Positions 4,613 to 21,683 of a stretch of DNA of 21,683 nucleotides are shown here, piece after piece. Below the pieces are notes generated by a model. It was not told the origin of the DNA, searched no databases, and worked only from the letters and a program-made list of their open reading frames with translations. Source of the stretch: an uncultured Collinsella sp. (lineage in GTDB: Bacteria; Actinomycetota; Coriobacteriia; Coriobacteriales; Coriobacteriaceae); assembly GCA_900556515.1 (NCBI GenBank), contig USPH01000001.1, positions 1 through 21,683 of the forward strand. Direction: 5' to 3'. How positions within the stretch are numbered: position 1 is the first letter of the stretch; every line of letters starts with the position of its first letter. Both the position numbers and the translations under genes were made by a program.

Positions 4613-4682
4613 AACGAGAGTGGAAAATCTCCCACTTCAAGCCCGCATTCGAGCCAAAAGTGGGAGATTATCCACTCTCGTT
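4613..4682. repeat. Long 25-bp-arm inverted repeat downstream of htpG
   Basis: Positions 4613-4637 and 4658-4682 are inverted copies matching at 24 of 25 positions, with a 20-base loop between them. The arms contain GAGAGTGG and CTCCCACTT blocks. It begins about 30 bases past the htpG stop codon and is followed on the minus strand by a second hairpin (4576-4604). It may act as a transcript-end stabiliser or a terminator without a T-tract. Its size and near-perfect symmetry fit a REP-like or MITE-like dispersed element better. Confidence 0.7.
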
Positions 4683-16498: not shown

Positions 16499-16588
16499 GG
16501 GTTCGAATCCCCAGCTAACGTGGTTCAACTAAAAAAGGGCCCCAAATGGGACCCTTCTTTCAAGTCATACTGGCGGAGAGCTGGGGAT
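16499..16588. repeat. tRNA-Ser 3'-end/terminator cassette, copy 1 (truncated)
   Basis: A 90-bp unit that repeats the 3' flank of the real tRNA-Ser gene. It starts with T-arm sequence in plus orientation (GGGTTCGAATCCCCAGC, 16499-16515), then the terminator copy (16531-16554), then the last 18 bases of the tRNA in minus orientation including CCA (16571-16588). At 16589 the match to the tRNA breaks off inside the T-loop. The 9-bp ends ATCCCCAGC/GCTGGGGAT are inverted. Confidence 0.85.
16531..16554 (-). terminator. Duplicated tRNA-Ser terminator, orphan copy
   Basis: On the minus strand GGGTCCC and GGGGCCC form a 7-bp stem with loop ATTT, followed by TTTTTT. It is nearly identical to the terminator at 16722-16745, differing in the loop. 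No complete gene feeds into it: only a tRNA 3'-end fragment lies upstream. Confidence 0.8.
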
Positions 16589-16688
16589 GTCCGGGCATGC
16601 TACGCATGCCCTCCGGCTTCAAAGCCTGGCGGCTTTTCGCCCACGGGCTACAAACGCTTTCGCGTTTGCTTAACGCCCGTGCCCTCTC
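16589..16688. repeat. Structured GC-rich spacer element at the tRNA-Ser locus
   Basis: A 100-bp stretch between the two tRNA 3'-end cassettes. It contains ordered hairpins: GGGCATGC-TAC-GCATGCCC; GGCTT-CA-AAGCC; and a nested pair in which CACGGGC and GCCCGTG enclose CAAACGC-TTTC-GCGTTTG. It has no open frame of note. The same order of hairpins with a different sequence occurs at 21024-21126 in the tRNA-Arg locus. Confidence 0.7.
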
Positions 16689-16787
16689 GGGTTCGAATCC
16701 CCAGCGCCCTTTCTCGATAATAAAAAAGGGCCCCCGATGGGACCCTTCTGTAAAGTTAAACTGGCGGAGAGCTGGGGATTCGAACCC
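16689..16787. repeat. tRNA-Ser 3'-end/terminator cassette, copy 2 (attached to the intact tRNA)
   Basis: Second copy of the cassette, joined to the intact tRNA gene. GGGTTCGAATCCCCAGC (16689-16705) is a perfect 17-bp inverted copy of the T-arm and acceptor sequence of the tRNA itself (16771-16787). The two ends enclose the terminator. The unit repeats 16499-16588 with a 190-bp period. Confidence 0.85.
16722..16745 (-). terminator. Intrinsic terminator of tRNA-Ser(GCT)
   Basis: On the minus strand GGGTCCC and GGGGCCC pair over 7 bp (one G-U) with loop ATCG, followed by TTTTTT. It lies 17 bases past the CCA end of the tRNA. Confidence 0.9.
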
Positions 16788-16852
16788 CAGATGCCCTTTT
16801 GGGGCATACTCGCTTAGCAGGCGAGCACCTTCGGCCTCTCGGTCAGCTCTCC
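16762..16852 (-). tRNA. tRNA-Ser(GCT)
   Basis: Complete class II tRNA of 91 bases including an encoded CCA. The acceptor stem GGAGAGC pairs with GCTCTCC, discriminator G. The anticodon arm is CTCGC-CTGCTAA-GCGAG, giving anticodon GCT, which reads AGC/AGU serine codons. The long variable arm pairs ATGCCC with GGGCAT, as expected for tRNA-Ser, and the T-arm is TGGGG-TTCGAAT-CCCCA. A promoter and a terminator flank it. Its 3' end is duplicated in the adjacent cassettes. Confidence 0.97.
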
Positions 16853-16866
16853 GTAACAGCCGTTCT

Positions 16867-16895
16867 ATAGTAACCAAACAGCCAAGGATGGGCAA
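16867..16895 (-). promoter_or_regulatory. Promoter of tRNA-Ser
   Basis: On the minus strand TTGCCC (16890-16895) and TACTAT (16867-16872) are separated by 17 bases, and the -10 lies 14 bases before the tRNA 5' end. Both hexamers are 4/6 matches to the sigma-70-type consensus. Confidence 0.6.
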
Positions 16896-16946
16896 GGGGG
16901 AATTTTGGAGCGATTCCGATTTGCCAGTAGACGTCTCAGCCAATCA

Positions 16947-17084
16947 TCTCAATTTGTAACAGTTACAGGCCGAATCTTCGTCCAGATGTTACAGATTTAG
17001 ACAAACAGTCAGCGCCATCCGCAAATGTCTCAATCTGAAACACCTGCATGCCGTAATCCCCTCTAGATGTTACAGATTGAGACA
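16947..17084. repeat. Four-copy alternating inverted repeat (two tandem hairpins)
   Basis: A ~17-bp motif close to TGTTACAGATTGAGACA occurs four times with alternating orientation: reverse at 16947-16961, forward at 16987-17003, reverse at 17026-17042, forward at 17068-17084. The second pair is inverted at 16 of 17 positions, the first pair at about 12 of 15. So there are two hairpins in tandem, about 80 bp apart. They lie after the ATPase gene and before the tRNA-Ser promoter. No open frame is present. This may be a dispersed palindromic element. Confidence 0.75.
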
Positions 17085-17132
17085 AAGATGCGGGGGCAAC
17101 CACAGCGGCGGCGTCGATGCCTCCAGTCTTTA

Positions 17133-18215
17133 TTAGTCCGCTCGAATGGTCTCCAACAGATAATCGCGCATGTACGGAATTGCAAACGAAACACAGCCGT
17201 AGCCGGCAGGCTCAATCAGTCCCGTATCGATCAGACGTTTGCGATACGACCCGACTTTATTCGCCGGCAATCCCATCTTTTTGGCAATATCACCGTTCGT
17301 AATCTCGCCGCCTTCGCATTGCGCCATCGCCGCGAGATATTGAAACTGCCGCTCCGACACCCTGCGCAGCGCGGGGGCAATCACCATGGCATTGAAACTA
17401 TCAAGAGCCGCCTGGACACCCTTGCGAGCCGCCTCTTCACTCACGCTCTCCGACCCGCTGCGCGCAGCAACCTGCCAAGCGTAATATCCGACCAACTGGA
17501 CCATAAAGGGATAGCCTGCCGAAGCCTTTGTTAAAAGCTCAGCAACGCCTTCGTCGAGTTCCTTGCCCGCACGCCTCATCGTATCCTCAAACGATCCGCC
17601 GACTTCAAAATCTGAAAGCCGCGTGAGCTCGATATGCTTCGCCCTCTGAAGGAACGTCAACGTATCATCCACCACCACGCCATCCACCGAGGTTGGCAAA
17701 CCAGCGAATGCAAAGGCGACATTCGCCCCTTGGCGAATCAAGAGCTGCATTTCATTACCCAGCTCGCGCATTTCCTCAGTTGAGGCGTCCTGAATCTCAT
17801 CGAGTGTGATGAGCAAACCACCTCGCTTCGCGGCATCGTACATCGCCTCCCCCAGATGAGAGGCTGACTTCGACAGCTCTACGGAGCCAAGGCTGACTCC
17901 TAAAATCGATGGGGAAATCGACATTGATGCAAGACGAACATTTCGCTGCAGAGCCTCGAGAATTCTGTCACAAAAACCGGCATTTGAGGCGACGTCGACA
18001 ACCTCGAATCCTTTTTTGCGCGCAAGATCGCCCAATGCGTTGAGGAGCACCGTTTTACCCGTGCCTCGGACACCCGAGATGCGCATGAGTCGATCGGGGG
18101 CACCAGGGCCATTCTCAAGAGCTTCGGCAAAGTCATCCAAAACAGCGTCGCGTCCGATAAGCTCAGGTGGATTCATGCCCGCTGTTGGCTTAAAGGGATT
18201 AATAGCTTTTGACAT
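17133..18215 (-). CDS. Orc1/Cdc6-like AAA+ ATPase with C-terminal winged helix
   Basis: Cytosolic ATP-binding protein of 360 residues. It opens with NPPELIGRDAVLDDFAEALE, a lead-in typical of AAA_16/Orc1-type ATPases. Walker A is GVRGTGKT (48-55), Walker B is LLITLDEIQDA (134-144), and a sensor-like strand is VAFAFAGLPTS (166-176). The C-terminal domain (about 285-345) is winged-helix-like: RQFQYLAAMAQ, ITNGDIAKKMGLPANKVGSYRKRLIDTGLI, then a beta wing. The ATG at 18215 follows GAGGAGG; the frame extends to 18260 but that part lies in the repeat array and has no binding site. The function is not known. Proteins of this type in bacteria are often lone genes, some mobile-element-linked, and may bind DNA or act as stress or defence switches. 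The repeats at its 5' end make DNA-binding autoregulation attractive. Confidence 0.9.
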   Translation of the reverse strand: MSKAINPFKPTAGMNPPELIGRDAVLDDFAEALENGPGAPDRLMRISGVRGTGKTVLLNALGDLARKKGFEVVDVASNAGFCDRILEALQRNVRLASMSISPSILGVSLGSVELSKSASHLGEAMYDAAKRGGLLITLDEIQDASTEEMRELGNEMQLLIRQGANVAFAFAGLPTSVDGVVVDDTLTFLQRAKHIELTRLSDFEVGGSFEDTMRRAGKELDEGVAELLTKASAGYPFMVQLVGYYAWQVAARSGSESVSEEAARKGVQAALDSFNAMVIAPALRRVSERQFQYLAAMAQCEGGEITNGDIAKKMGLPANKVGSYRKRLIDTGLIEPAGYGCVSFAIPYMRDYLLETIRAD

Positions 18216-18231
18216 TCGACCTCCTCTGCCA

Positions 18232-18287
18232 GTTTTAACAACTTTAACAAAGTTTAGCAACTTTAGCAGAGTTTAACAGTTTTAGCA
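18232..18287. repeat. Six abutting 9-10 bp iteron-like repeats upstream of the AAA+ ATPase
   Basis: On the plus strand the copies are GTTTTAACA, ACTTTAACA, AAGTTTAGCA, ACTTTAGCA, GAGTTTAACA and GTTTTAGCA, with no gaps, sharing the core TTTA(A/G)CA. The array ends 16 bases before the ATPase ATG, so it covers the 5' leader and probably the promoter. Such arrays resemble iterons bound by replication or regulatory proteins. The rest of the gap to 18376 shows nothing else clear. Confidence 0.75.
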
Positions 18288-18376
18288 GGCTCGGAGGCTT
18301 TATGCCTTACCGATTCTGTCGGGTCCTCCCGCCCGCGCCGATACAAATAGCGCGGTGCGGCCCCTCTATATCGCCC

Positions 18377-20818
18377 CTACCCCAGCGAGCGGTTGAGGGA
18401 GCCGAGCTCATCATTGCCCATGGTGCGCCACATTTGGAAGATGCAACCGCGCGCCAGGAAAAAGAAGCCGTTGTCGACCAGTTGCACAGCGGCATCTGCC
18501 AGCTGATTCGTCACGGCGGACACTGGCGGCAGCTCAAGTCCAGCCTTGCGGATGGTCTCGACCGCCTCCTCGAACGTCGGAGGCTCGCTGACGCCCATCT
18601 CGTTCATAAGGCCCTGCATTTCTTCCAGCGCGCTGCTGCCCGACTCCTCGCCGCGCGGCACCAGACGGTAACAAGCCAGCGCCAGGTCGAGCTGATCGCA
18701 ATTCCAATAGGCAAACGCCAAGCGATAGAACAGGTAGCCAATTGCAGAACGATCGCTGGCAATACGTAGGCCGTGGCGCGCCACCTCGATAATCTCGTCA
18801 AAGCGCTCCAGACGCGCAAGCACGTTGATGAGCGCAAAGTGCGATTGCATGGACGAGCGCGCCAGATCGTAAAGATGGCGCACCTCGGGCAGCGCTCGTT
18901 CAAAGTCCTCTTGCTCGGCATAAAAGCTGCAGATCTCGTGCTGGGCAAAGTACAGCGCATCGGGCGCACGAAGGATTCGCACAGAGCGGTCTTCTTCCAA
19001 CACCGGTAGCACCATGCGCACCAGCTGGTTATCGCAAAACTGCGTTTGAACCGGACCTGTCGCCAAAAGCTCGGCGACAGTGCACTTAGCCTCCAACTCC
19101 TCGACAAGACGGGAAAAGCCTTCAAAAGCACCTGTACGGTCGACTTTTACCTGCTCGCGCAATTCAACAACACGGGCCACGTATGGGTCGTCGTCCTCTT
19201 CCATGACCTCCAACTCGTCAGCCGTATCGGCAAGTAGCAGATCGCGCAGCGCCGGCGGCAGCGTGCGATGGTCATCACGCGGACGAGTATGAACCTCCGC
19301 AGGCTCAATCGTCTCCGGAGCGGTTGACTCATACGCCTCAAGCACACGCTTGCACGGCATATCGTCCATGTCCATGCTCTCAAGATCCTTGGCGACAGAC
19401 ACGCAATCGGCCAGATAGGCCGCGCGCCCAAAGAAATACGTTGTGACAACGCGCTCGCCCTGCTCACTGTCGGGAGCAGCAATCTGCACACAGCAGCGCG
19501 TAATGCAGGTGCCCGCGGCAAAACACGCTGCCGCAAGCGTGAGTGCCACGCGCGCATCGTGCTCCGCGGCCCAGATCGCGCGCGTGTCCTCGTCCAGCTC
19601 GCGCCAGGCGTCATCCTGAGCGTCGTATTCACGTTGCGGCATGGCATCAACGACAGACTGCCCAAACCGAACGAGCATAATCCCCTCGGCAACGTTTGCC
19701 CGATAGGTATAGTCGAGCCGCGTGACCACGTTGAGCGCCTCAACGATTCGCGCAAAACGGGTGCGCACGTCCCACTCGCCGCCCGGCTGGCAAGCCACCG
19801 TACCCGGCTTGCCCCACGGGTTATCGCTCGAAGCCGTATCGAGCAGTCGGGGAACATCGTTGGTCGTCTTGGCGATATGCCACGCATCAAAGAGCGCGCA
19901 GCCCTCAAGGCTCGGCGAGGATGCCGCAGGGACCAATCCGGCCCCGATGCGCTCAAGGATGCCGGAGAGGCGGTTGAGACGGCACTCGATGGCAAGCAGC
20001 ATGTCAATCTCGTCCTGGTCCAACAGGCTACGATCAAAATTGAGATAGAAAATCTTTGAGCGATCAATGCGAGCCAGGCTCATCTCGGACTTGGCAGCGA
20101 TGGTGCGCAGGCGGGGCAAGTCAATTTCGCTCATAAGGGCGGCGGCATAGCGCTCGATACCGCTCGGATTCTCGGCATGGTCAACGCGGTAGAGCAGCGT
20201 CTCGATAGCATCGGGGAGCGGTGCCGTGTTAAAGCCCAAAAACACCTCGACCGGCTCGGGCAACTTTACGAGCTTGATCTTGTCGACAACGTTTTGCATA
20301 CCCTCGTCGAGTCCGCCGGCGTCCGCCGTGTTCACAATAGCGCTTTCGGAGTTGGCAAATATCACGTAGCGCAAGAACATCGAGGCCATGAACTCGCCGT
20401 AAGGAAGGGCGCGAGTCGAATTCCATGTCTCGTGGTCGGACTGCTCGCGCATGGGGCCTTCGGGAGAGCCGGCAGTTTGCGCACACGCGCGCATTGCACC
20501 GTTGGCTTCCCTTACCATAATCTCACCAATACTGGAATCCGACTCGTCAAGGACCAGTTCCATGTCGGGATCGTTGGGCAGCGGAGCCTCGCTGACGGGG
20601 CGGTCCACCTTGTACACCTCACCCGAAACGCTTACGTAGCCCAAAAGCGACACATGACTTTTGCCAACGAACTCGACGACATAACAAGATTCATGCTGAT
20701 CCTCGCCAAAGAGTTTCCAGACCACGCCATATGAGCGTCCCGCAGGCTGCTCGGGCATCGCCGGAAAGCGCTTCTTGGGATCGAGAAACCTGAGCTTGTA
20801 TGTCGGACGCTCTGCCAC
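18377..20818 (-). CDS. Hypothetical protein with TPR-like C-terminal helical repeats
   Basis: Large cytosolic protein of 813 residues that I do not recognise as a named family. No signal peptide is present. The first ~100 residues look beta-rich (YKLRFLDPKKRF, YVVEFVGKSHVSLLGYVSVSGEVY). The middle is acidic and mixed, with a Cys-containing stretch (AAACFAAGTCITRCC) around residue 440. From about residue 615 to 735 there are helix pairs of TPR type, such as YFAQHEICSFYAEQEDFERALPEVRHLYDLA cut into two helices, then ALINVLARLERFDEIIEVARHGL and YRLAFAYWNCDQLDLALACYRLV. TPR regions mediate protein contacts. The start is GTG at 20818 after AGGGTG. It lies 161 bp upstream of the AAA+ ATPase on the same strand, but the repeat array between them suggests separate control. 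Confidence 0.85.
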   Translation of the reverse strand: MAERPTYKLRFLDPKKRFPAMPEQPAGRSYGVVWKLFGEDQHESCYVVEFVGKSHVSLLGYVSVSGEVYKVDRPVSEAPLPNDPDMELVLDESDSSIGEIMVREANGAMRACAQTAGSPEGPMREQSDHETWNSTRALPYGEFMASMFLRYVIFANSESAIVNTADAGGLDEGMQNVVDKIKLVKLPEPVEVFLGFNTAPLPDAIETLLYRVDHAENPSGIERYAAALMSEIDLPRLRTIAAKSEMSLARIDRSKIFYLNFDRSLLDQDEIDMLLAIECRLNRLSGILERIGAGLVPAASSPSLEGCALFDAWHIAKTTNDVPRLLDTASSDNPWGKPGTVACQPGGEWDVRTRFARIVEALNVVTRLDYTYRANVAEGIMLVRFGQSVVDAMPQREYDAQDDAWRELDEDTRAIWAAEHDARVALTLAAACFAAGTCITRCCVQIAAPDSEQGERVVTTYFFGRAAYLADCVSVAKDLESMDMDDMPCKRVLEAYESTAPETIEPAEVHTRPRDDHRTLPPALRDLLLADTADELEVMEEDDDPYVARVVELREQVKVDRTGAFEGFSRLVEELEAKCTVAELLATGPVQTQFCDNQLVRMVLPVLEEDRSVRILRAPDALYFAQHEICSFYAEQEDFERALPEVRHLYDLARSSMQSHFALINVLARLERFDEIIEVARHGLRIASDRSAIGYLFYRLAFAYWNCDQLDLALACYRLVPRGEESGSSALEEMQGLMNEMGVSEPPTFEEAVETIRKAGLELPPVSAVTNQLADAAVQLVDNGFFFLARGCIFQMWRTMGNDELGSLNRSLG

Positions 20819-20856
20819 GAAATATCACCCTGATCGGTCGCTTGAAGAAGGAGTGG

Positions 20857-20873
20857 TCGCGAATAAGTCGCGA
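20857..20873. promoter_or_regulatory. TCGCGA direct/inverted repeat upstream of the TPR-like gene
   Basis: TCGCGA-ATAAG-TCGCGA: two copies of a perfect 6-bp palindrome 11 bases apart, 39 bases before the GTG start. It could be an operator. No convincing promoter hexamers were found in 20819-20926, which otherwise shows nothing clear. Confidence 0.3.
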
Positions 20874-20926
20874 CATCTACTCGGAATCTTACACGAGTCG
20901 ATAAGAAATCGTCCGCTTCACGCCCG

Positions 20927-21023
20927 CGCCTCGACCGAGGTTCGAATCCATGCAGTGCTTACGTAAAAGAAAAGCCCCCGTTGCCGGGAGCTTTAATCTC
21001 AAATGGTGCGGCGTATAGGATTC
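20927..21023. repeat. tRNA-Arg 3'-end/terminator cassette, copy 1 (truncated)
   Basis: Starts with GCGCCTCGACCGAGG and the T-loop-like GGTTCGAATCC in plus orientation (20939-20949), then a terminator (20965-20992), then the last 20 bases of tRNA-Arg in minus orientation including CCA (21004-21023). The tRNA match stops at GGATTC inside the T-loop and is replaced by the spacer at 21024. This is the same architecture as the tRNA-Ser cassette at 16499-16588. Confidence 0.85.
20965..20992 (-). terminator. Orphan tRNA-Arg-type terminator, copy 1
   Basis: On the minus strand AGCTCCCG and CGGGGGCT form an 8-bp stem with a GCAA tetraloop, followed by TTTCTTTT. Only a tRNA 3' fragment lies upstream of it. 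Confidence 0.8.
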
Positions 21024-21126
21024 CGCGCATCCGCTGCGCGGATCCGCACCGGCTTCGCCCGCCTGCCGGCGTGCTCGCCCGCTCGCTAAAAACGCCCCGC
21101 GTTTTCTTGGCGCTCGCGCCTCGACC
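21024..21126. repeat. Structured GC-rich spacer element at the tRNA-Arg locus
   Basis: 103 bp between cassette copies 1 and 2. Ordered hairpins: ATCCGC-TGC-GCGGAT, CCGGC(11 bases)GCCGG, AAAACGC-CCC-GCGTTTT, GGCGC-TC-GCGCC. It shares short blocks (CCGGCTTC, AAACGC...GCGTTT) and hairpin order with 16589-16688, with paired changes in the third hairpin. No coding capacity is visible. Confidence 0.7.
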
Positions 21127-21218
21127 GAGGTTCGAATCCATGCAGCGGCGACATAAAAGAAAAGCCCCCGTTGCCGGAGGCTTCAAGTTCAATTGGTGCG
21201 GCGTATAGGATTCGAACC
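21112..21218. repeat. tRNA-Arg 3'-end/terminator cassette, copy 2 (attached to intact tRNA)
   Basis: Repeats copy 1: GCTCGCGCCTCGACCGAGG, GGTTCGAATCC (21129-21139), terminator (21155-21182), then the intact tRNA-Arg, whose T-arm GGATTCGAACC (21208-21218) is the inverted match to the left end. Confidence 0.85.
21155..21182 (-). terminator. Terminator of tRNA-Arg copy 1
   Basis: On the minus strand AGCCTCCG and CGGGGGCT form an 8-bp stem (one G-U) with a GCAA tetraloop, followed by TTTCTTTT, 11 bases after the CCA end. Confidence 0.9.
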
Positions 21219-21270
21219 TATGACGTTCTGATTCGTAGTCAGACCCTCTATCCAGCTGAGGTAACGCCGC
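21194..21270 (-). tRNA. tRNA-Arg(ACG), first copy
   Basis: 77 bases including CCA. The acceptor stem GCGGCGT pairs with ACGCCGC, discriminator A. The anticodon arm is TCTGA-CTACGAA-TCAGA with anticodon ACG; the wobble A is normally deaminated to inosine by TadA to read CGU/CGC/CGA. The T-arm is ATAGG-TTCGAAT-CCTAT. It is identical to the copy at 21429-21505. Confidence 0.97.
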
Positions 21271-21428: not shown

Positions 21429-21505
21429 TGGTGCGGCGTATAGGATTCGAACCTATGACGTTCTGATTCGTAGTCAGACCCTCTATCCAGCTGAGGTAAC
21501 GCCGC
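21429..21505 (-). tRNA. tRNA-Arg(ACG), second copy
   Basis: 77 bases including CCA, identical over its whole length to the copy at 21194-21270, with anticodon ACG. It has its own promoter and terminator, so the two genes are separate transcription units in tandem on the minus strand. Confidence 0.97.
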
Positions 21506-21546: not shown

Positions 21547-21629
21547 GCGACAATTTGGAAAAATTTTACGAAGTGATGATTAAGATGCTCGCGCCTCGAC
21601 CGAGGTTCGAATCCGTGCGGTGCCGGCGT

Positions 21630-21657
21630 AAAAGAAAAGCCCCCGTTGCCGGAGGCT
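21630..21657 (-). terminator. tRNA-Arg-type terminator in the last cassette
   Basis: On the minus strand AGCCTCCG and CGGGGGCT form an 8-bp stem with a GCAA loop, followed by TTTCTTTT. It is identical to the copy at 21155-21182. Confidence 0.85.
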
Positions 21658-21668
21658 TCAAGTTCAAT

Positions 21669-21683
21669 TGGTGCGGCGTATAG
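21669..21683 (-). tRNA. Partial tRNA-Arg 3' end (window edge)
   Basis: Fifteen bases identical to the CCA end and acceptor 3' strand of the two complete tRNA-Arg genes. It may be a third tRNA-Arg(ACG) or a truncated fragment like that at 21004-21023. Confidence 0.5.

Follow-up and report, generated by a model that had tools for sequence, protein, structure and literature searches.

What kind of element places a string of small hairpins between fragments of tRNA genes? The question arises from a 21,683-nucleotide stretch of DNA from an uncultured Collinsella sp. (GenBank assembly GCA_900556515.1, contig USPH01000001.1, positions 1 to 21,683; hereafter the window), in which a first-pass annotation had pointed out two spacers of about 100 bp that differ in sequence and keep the same order of hairpins. 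We find that these two segments, here called Y, are the cores of two units that lie directly 3′ of tRNA-Ser(GCT) and tRNA-Arg(ACG). The units are about 185-190 bp long and gene-less, and the order of their elements is alike at both loci. Read 5′ to 3′ on the tRNA-sense strand, which is the minus strand of the window, a unit consists of the tRNA tail, a spacer, an inverted T-arm core (invT), the hairpin string Y of about 100 bp, and a second copy of the local tRNA tail that begins inside the T-loop. The explanation we favour, on which we are evenly divided between belief and doubt, is that the units are gene-less, non-autonomous mobile elements anchored at tRNA and transfer-messenger RNA (tmRNA) genes, predicted to recombine as a folded single strand with an enzyme supplied from another locus.

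Units behind tRNA genes

The tRNA-Ser unit follows tRNA-Ser(GCT), to which the first array is anchored (16762..16852, minus strand, as for all features of both arrays; ARAGORN and Rfam RF00005). Next come the proximal spacer X, with a terminator-like hairpin (16706..16761; from the sequence and cross-genome comparison), invT (16689..16705; GGG-TTCGAAT-CCCCAGC on the plus strand, GGGGATTCGAACCC on the tRNA strand), Y (16589..16688) and the tRNA-Ser 3′ tail once more, over 18 nt that begin at tRNA position 59 and end with CCA (59-76; 16571..16588). At the second array, tRNA-Arg(ACG) (21194..21270; ARAGORN) is followed by its proximal spacer X (21139..21193; from the sequence and a repeat search), invT (21127..21138; GGTTCGAATCC on the plus strand), Y (21023..21126) and a second tRNA-Arg 3′ tail copy (21005..21022; 20-nt identity). 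The ordered hairpins of the first-pass annotation are confirmed from sequence and folds. On the plus strand, 16589-16688 holds GGGCATGC-TAC-GCATGCCC, a GGCTTC/GGCTTT stem, CAAACGC-TTTC-GCGTTTG with an outer stem CACGGGC/GCCCGTG, and CCC-TCTC-GGG; 21024-21126 holds ATCCGC-TGC-GCGGAT, a weaker CCGGC stem and AAAACGC-CCC-GCGTTTT. The paired C-G to A-T change reported for the last stem is present, and the placement between tRNA fragments is likewise supported.

Among 98 relatives, BLAST searches with the two spacers were positive in 37 and 35. A covariance model built on 12 copies at different tRNAs, both window copies included, matches 54 of the 98 relatives (E 1e-4) and 57 of 296 genomes of the class (E 1e-6); by this model 32 of 43 congeners carry 8-18 copies and three carry none. 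The window copies score 106.9 bits (16579-16704) and 120.3 bits (21013-21143), values that are high partly by construction because both are among the 12 model seeds. Isolated strong copies occur in distant families (104 bits in genome G310, 88 bits in G302), and named records with the core pattern come from Collinsella, Slackia, and other Coriobacteriia. Within Collinsella, copies are mostly 70-85% alike between tRNA kinds and 90-100% alike within one kind. The covariance search proposed in the first-pass annotation thus yields many further genomic copies with their stems kept. The annotation's remark that no named family fits also stands: Rfam 15 gives no covariance model match over either Y at E <= 1, and a literature search found no description of such units. 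The Rfam matches in the region are the tRNAs and low-scoring ones, including plastid families antisense to the tRNAs, which we rejected.

A rumen spirochaete genome has 39 matches to an 85-95 bp multi-hairpin repeat (L254:3690-3785; L303-L322) with an AAAACGC-GAA-GCGTTT-GTAGCGAG hairpin in common with Y; its first copy lies away from tRNA genes. This is a different, dispersed repeat, and the common hairpin may reflect either homology or convergence.

The following analyses use 53 loci from six genomes together with the window, which contain 75 covariance model matches. In 70 of these, a tRNA or tmRNA gene lies on the same strand within 700 bp upstream, and 22 kinds of gene are represented (21 tRNA kinds and tmRNA). 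First units mostly stand 38-74 bp behind the gene. The five exceptions are L120, where an integrated element separates copy and tRNA, L124, at a contig end, L157, L132, and one of the copies at L130. Beyond the locus set, copies also occur at tRNA-Arg(TCT), Arg(CCG), and Cys. Both window units, and many others, have a terminator-like hairpin ahead of Y; termination as the purpose of the unit was rejected, since the spacers at L217 and L222 have no visible terminator.

The units are matched to the tRNA beside which they lie. The seven-base loop of invT is identical to the local T-loop in 45 of 55 copies, compared with a permuted mean of 12.4 and a maximum of 23 in 10,000. This test omits 20 of the 75 matches: 18 with no same-strand tRNA within 80 bp, and two that were unparsed (L162 and L155), whose loops are each one base off the local T-loop. 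In 41 of the 55, at least 10 nt of the local tail are repeated after Y. Wherever present, this tail copy starts in the T-loop or at its edge, at position 59 (12 copies), 57 (12), 56 (10), 54 (five), 55 (one), or 61 (one).

Conservation of the predicted fold

Seventy-two distinct aligned copies (75 matches) were fitted to the covariance model. Across this alignment 93.9% of cells pair and 19 of 26 pairs have two-sided changes, a number reached by none of 500 shuffles and to be compared with 2-11 in slid controls. The covariation score of 0.337 exceeds both the 0.152 of the shuffles and the slid controls, whose maximum is 0.063. The 12-sequence seed alignment, used as a check, leaves the picture unchanged (12 of 26 pairs two-sided; 0 of 500 shuffles). 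One tmRNA copy has its central stem wholly replaced with pairing kept. Compensatory changes over the 75 matches therefore exceed chance, which supports the earlier suggestion of selection on structure.

For the predicted folds, the 75 matches were reduced to 64 by removing those with a score under 34 or near a contig end, and then to 46 by similarity. The mean fold z is −4.0, with 37 of the 46 below −2, and the tRNA strand folds better than its complement in 44 of 46; the window's Y at 16589-16688 likewise has its best predicted fold on the tRNA-sense (minus) strand. Hairpin loops on this strand are strongly biased in type: 90 of 161 are C(GNA)G, C(GNRA)G, or C(GNYA)G; the complementary strand has one such loop in 159 and shuffled sequences have 2.8%, and with DNA folding parameters loops of the GNA/GNNA type number 87 of 172. 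The control set for loops consists of 20 terminator-like hairpins only, from the same loci; none has a C(GNA)G or C(GNNA)G loop, and three have GNRA loops closed by A-T. GNA and GNNA loops on G-C closing stems are described as extraordinarily stable mini-hairpins in DNA (PMC4686876). The loop types favour folded single-stranded DNA over RNA.

The predicted fold rebuilds a T-arm half-site by pairing invT with the half T-arm beyond Y. The alignment consensus instead pairs part of invT with Y, and the stem between invT and the half T-arm is the least certain of the structure.

Filled and empty sites

We fetched 30 orthologous tRNA-Phe loci, of which 18 were readable and 12 had no readable tail; the site is filled in 12 species and empty in six. 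With one 186-bp unit removed, the filled sites of G011, G008, and G004 are identical to the natural empty site of G041 over 170/170 positions. The other nine filled sites match the best empty site at 135-166 of 170 positions, gap-free, and fall below 170/170 because their flanks differ. Of the Phe unit, about 123 bp are new sequence; the remaining 63 bp or so repeat the target between the T-loop and a point shortly beyond the terminator. Its direct repeats are uninterrupted over 62-66 nt in nine of the 12 species and over 24, 27, and 45 nt in the remaining three; at a single copy behind tRNA-Gln in G033 the repeat is 63/63. Between sites, the repeated length ranges from about 9 to 88 nt. This pattern, in which some species have the unit and others lack it to the base, makes mobility of this DNA likely.

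In several Collinsella, tandem hairpin repeats of the form CGGAAA..TGCGTCCC ... GGGATGCG..TTTCCG also occur after the tRNA-Phe terminator (L329, L327).

At tRNA-Ser, 22 loci were collected and eight filled sites (nine with the window) compared with seven empty ones. In six loci the fetched stretch contained no tail; four of them were later read, leaving G011 and G036. G037, tallied as empty by the script, has a unit and is cut by a contig end. Over the 36 pairs of nine genomes, Y is 98.7% identical, the adjoining coding sequence 90.6%, and the spacers 78-81%. In seven of the nine genomes, the two spacers of one Ser array are only 66-82% alike, and the proximal spacer is 92-100% alike to that of another genome. 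Empty Ser sites retain an invT, and so may be scars of a lost unit.

A further arrangement at the tRNA-Ser site is seen in G004, G012, G010, and G031 (L212-L215), where an insert of about 1.3 kb lies between tRNA-Ser and a carboxypeptidase gene. It contains a TM2-like frame (recognized by eye; interrupted in G010 and G031) and a decayed start of invT/Y. G011 and G036 are also without an intact tRNA-Ser site in the fetched stretch. We considered the insert as a gene-bearing cassette and rejected this, treating the decayed unit and TM2-like frame as an old insertion.

Genome G097 (88% complete, with contigs that break inside units) has near-identical spacer-invT-Y segments behind the genes for tRNA-Thr, tRNA-Gly, tmRNA, tRNA-Ser(CGA), and tRNA-Ser(TGA), each beside its own tail, three of these units being truncated at a contig end. 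At Thr (about 22 nt) and, across two contigs, at Gly, the second tail copy matches the local tRNA. Either units have recently moved from one kind of tRNA gene to another, or gene conversion has been strong. At three loci of the same genome (L125, L124, and L130) a second repeated sequence, CAGCTTGCCCTTTTT..GCCTGACTGCGTTGCTG, also starts directly after the CCA of the tRNA tail.

Within the window, the earlier count of two copies holds for full copies. In addition, the tRNA-Arg array ends distally in a truncated third copy, with invT and the start of Y only (20847..20953; 23.3 bits), and there is a further tRNA-Arg unit of invT (21604-21613), spacer, and tail that is cut by the window edge (21600..21683; family D1). 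The second tRNA-Arg(ACG) of the tandem (21429..21505; ARAGORN and covariance model) has no full unit behind it. The tRNA-Ser array continues with a distal spacer X′, which has a terminator-like hairpin (16510..16570; repeat family D5), and a distal invT core that adjoins the terminator of the host gene (16499..16509). Elsewhere in the window, two diverged 77-bp direct repeats with palindromic TCTCAAT..ATGTTACAGATT-like motifs adjoin an ATPase-like gene (16947-17104), and a 25-bp inverted repeat, 96% complementary, lies behind an htpG-like gene (4613-4682) and is probably a terminator.

Mobile DNA, RNA, or relic

As far as comparison of sequences can establish them, the order of elements within the unit, the tail copies, the covariation, and the exact empty Phe sites are secure. 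How such units could move is a matter of prediction. The tRNA-sense strand would become exposed as single-stranded DNA and then fold; invT, by pairing with the half T-arm beyond Y, would rebuild a double-stranded T-arm half-site; and a tyrosine recombinase, either resident and XerC/D-like or belonging to a prophage or integrative element, would join the half-site to the T-arm of a tRNA of the same kind. The tRNA would keep a working 3′ end because the adjoining segment carries the right tail. By a second route, slippage or homologous recombination between the direct tail repeats may cause loss or doubling and so give rise to arrays and empty sites. Recombination of a folded strand in trans is favoured by the combination of a tDNA-island signature without a gene, an incomplete crossover overlap, an invT that keeps the T-loop, and the predicted fold.

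Comparison with known systems brings out both likeness and difference. In tDNA islands, as described for Islander (PMC4383910), the 3′ end of the tRNA is restored and the displaced 3′ fragment marks the far end. The units likewise keep a restored tRNA, with a tail copy in 41 of 55 and exact empty sites for three of the 12 filled Phe sites. They differ in their size of 185-190 bp, in having neither genes nor an integrase of their own, in their inverted T-arm core and conserved fold, and in their occurrence at 22 kinds of tRNA/tmRNA gene, with 8-18 copies in 32 of 43 congeners. They also lack the identical crossover overlap of islands at both att junctions: at the Y/tail junction, 34 of 41 copies (tail starting at 56, 57, or 59) lack part of the 7-nt overlap needed for a canonical T-loop crossover, and a plain tyrosine-integrase reaction there therefore fits poorly. 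In integron attC sites, one strand folds into a structured object (PMC2727003). The units resemble them as arrays of short direct units in which one strand is predicted to fold and structure is kept over sequence; unlike integron cassettes they are gene-less, and the anchor is a tRNA gene rather than attI. Tentatively, and with doubt outweighing confidence, the units could be seen as an integron-like new class of mobile DNA: gene-less cassettes whose folded strand would rebuild a T-arm site, with tRNA genes in the place of attI and a resident recombinase. By this analogy, any tRNA or tmRNA gene of the cell could dock a cassette array. With miniature inverted-repeat transposable elements the units share the absence of genes, multiple copies, and exact presence or absence; they differ in that terminal inverted repeats are not seen by eye and that their direct repeats are tRNA-made and variable in length.

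A mobile unit of this kind would need an enzyme from elsewhere, and tyrosine recombinases are found in 42 of 42 congeners searched. Their ubiquity permits the idea of a recombinase acting in trans and does not prove it. An integrase open reading frame (ORF) with an internal TAG occurs in at least 11 Collinsella genomes. At L208, L209, L210, and L216, which are nearly identical, it is a shortened tyrosine-recombinase remnant with one in-frame TAG behind a small helix-turn-helix gene. We dropped it as a candidate enzyme, the frames in these four genomes being a shortened remnant behind a small regulator. At L120, the tRNA-Ser tail directly ahead of a unit also contains the right end of an integrated element (L120:4100-5330) that encodes a 376-aa tyrosine integrase; this element is an ordinary tRNA island that uses the same tRNA end.

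Several observations weigh against mobility by a folded strand. The units contain no recombinase and at 185-190 bp are too short to encode one, and among the 39 recurrent ORF groups near the 53 loci and the window, Pfam identifies no recombinase or transposase (24 groups belong to other families and 15 have no match). The sole integrase close to a copy, at L120, belongs to the separate element whose right end is upstream of the array. Searches of viral contigs (with two patterns), phages (Ser spacer only), and plasmids (Arg spacer only) gave no copies. The incomplete overlap described above counts here as well. Ten of the 55 invT loops are unlike the local T-loop, and 14 of the 55 copies have no local tail copy, three of them cut by contig ends and another (L126) followed by a tail resembling that of another serine tRNA. 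In G097, the distal tail at Ser(CGA) resembles another serine tRNA's, invT of the tmRNA unit is mismatched, and a Ser(GGA) copy lies apart from its tRNA; identical copies at different tRNAs could stem from gene conversion and not from jumps. Nine of the 46 folds have z above −2, and GNRA loops are stable in RNA too. Orientation relative to replication is weak, with 43 of 66 on the G-rich strand by GC skew. A double-stranded circle of 186 bp would be very tight.

Two alternatives to folded-strand mobility come next, and we regard each as unlikely. The main non-mobile one is that Y is a functional RNA, transcribed by read-through from the tRNA and acting, for example, in tRNA 3′ processing or termination. 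Folding of the sense strand, covariation, and the fixed distance behind tRNA genes would all be expected of it, and GNRA, the RNA-favoured subset, accounts for 39 of the 90 loops of the G..A type; the other 51, however, are GNA or GNYA. A host RNA also sits poorly with the absence of Y at the same tRNA in close relatives, the varying number of units, the terminator-like hairpins ahead of Y, and the lack of an Rfam match over Y.

The main alternative at the DNA level is transposition with target-site duplication, in which a transposase would insert the linker, invT, and Y (about 123 bp) after the tRNA terminator or CCA, and the filling-in of staggered cuts would duplicate the stretch from the T-loop onward (about 20 to about 65 bp). 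The uninterrupted 62-66 nt repeats that flank the Phe insert in nine of 12 species fit such a process, as do the 63/63 repeat at Gln in G033 and the repeats of about 22 nt of local tail at Thr and Gly (two contigs) in G097. It is at odds with a repeat length varying from about 9 to 88 nt, with the lack of a candidate enzyme, with terminal inverted repeats not being seen by eye, and with the nonlocal distal tail at Ser(CGA) in G097.

Somewhat less credible still is descent, in which ancient repeats have been reshaped only by homologous recombination, tail-repeat slippage, and gene conversion. Flanking direct repeats and hairpins favour slippage, spacers have been shuffled between species, and the similarity of copies (70-85% between tRNA kinds, 90-100% within) is in keeping with it. 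Descent leaves unexplained the matching tails and loops at 22 kinds of gene and the isolated high-scoring copies in the distant families of G310 and G302.

The first-pass annotation had suggested, as one possibility, mobility of the REP/IS200 type (REP, repetitive extragenic palindromic), and proposed looking for a shared tyrosine or HUH nuclease in carriers. The HUH idea is weakened by G033. At E 1e-5, PF01797 (Y1_Tnp) has no match in the carriers G033 (13 copies), G002 (one), G006 (three), and G026 (five), and one match in G015, where unit copies were not found. RVT_1 occurs in 12 of 58 genomes and in 8 of 35 congeners searched, 33 of these 35 carrying units. Neither Y1 transposases nor reverse transcriptases follow the distribution of the units. 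Short hairpins and a non-autonomous repeat form are shared with REP/RAYT and IS200/IS605 palindromes, whereas the units are anchored at tRNAs (70 of 75) rather than dispersed, copy the target tail, and include carriers with no Y1 match, so that the suggested mobility of this type is not upheld. Both a REP-like element mobilized through an HUH (Y1) transposase and a tRNA-primed retroelement are thus very improbable despite the GNA-loop hairpins and the 12 of 41 tail copies that start at position 59 (18 nt to CCA), a start that recalls retroviral primer sites; priming of reverse transcription by the tRNA was rejected, reverse transcriptases being rare in carriers.

Should the units instead prove to be host RNA, they would form a new tRNA-linked class of RNA. 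If they are mobile DNA, as we favour, they would be among the smallest integrating elements to our knowledge, and a common human gut genus would be using much of its tRNA set as landing sites with the tRNAs not destroyed. They would then offer a natural system for the handling of folded single-stranded DNA by a recombinase outside integrons, and would bear on why T-arms are good integration sites and on the tail fragments that blur the annotation of tRNA flanks.

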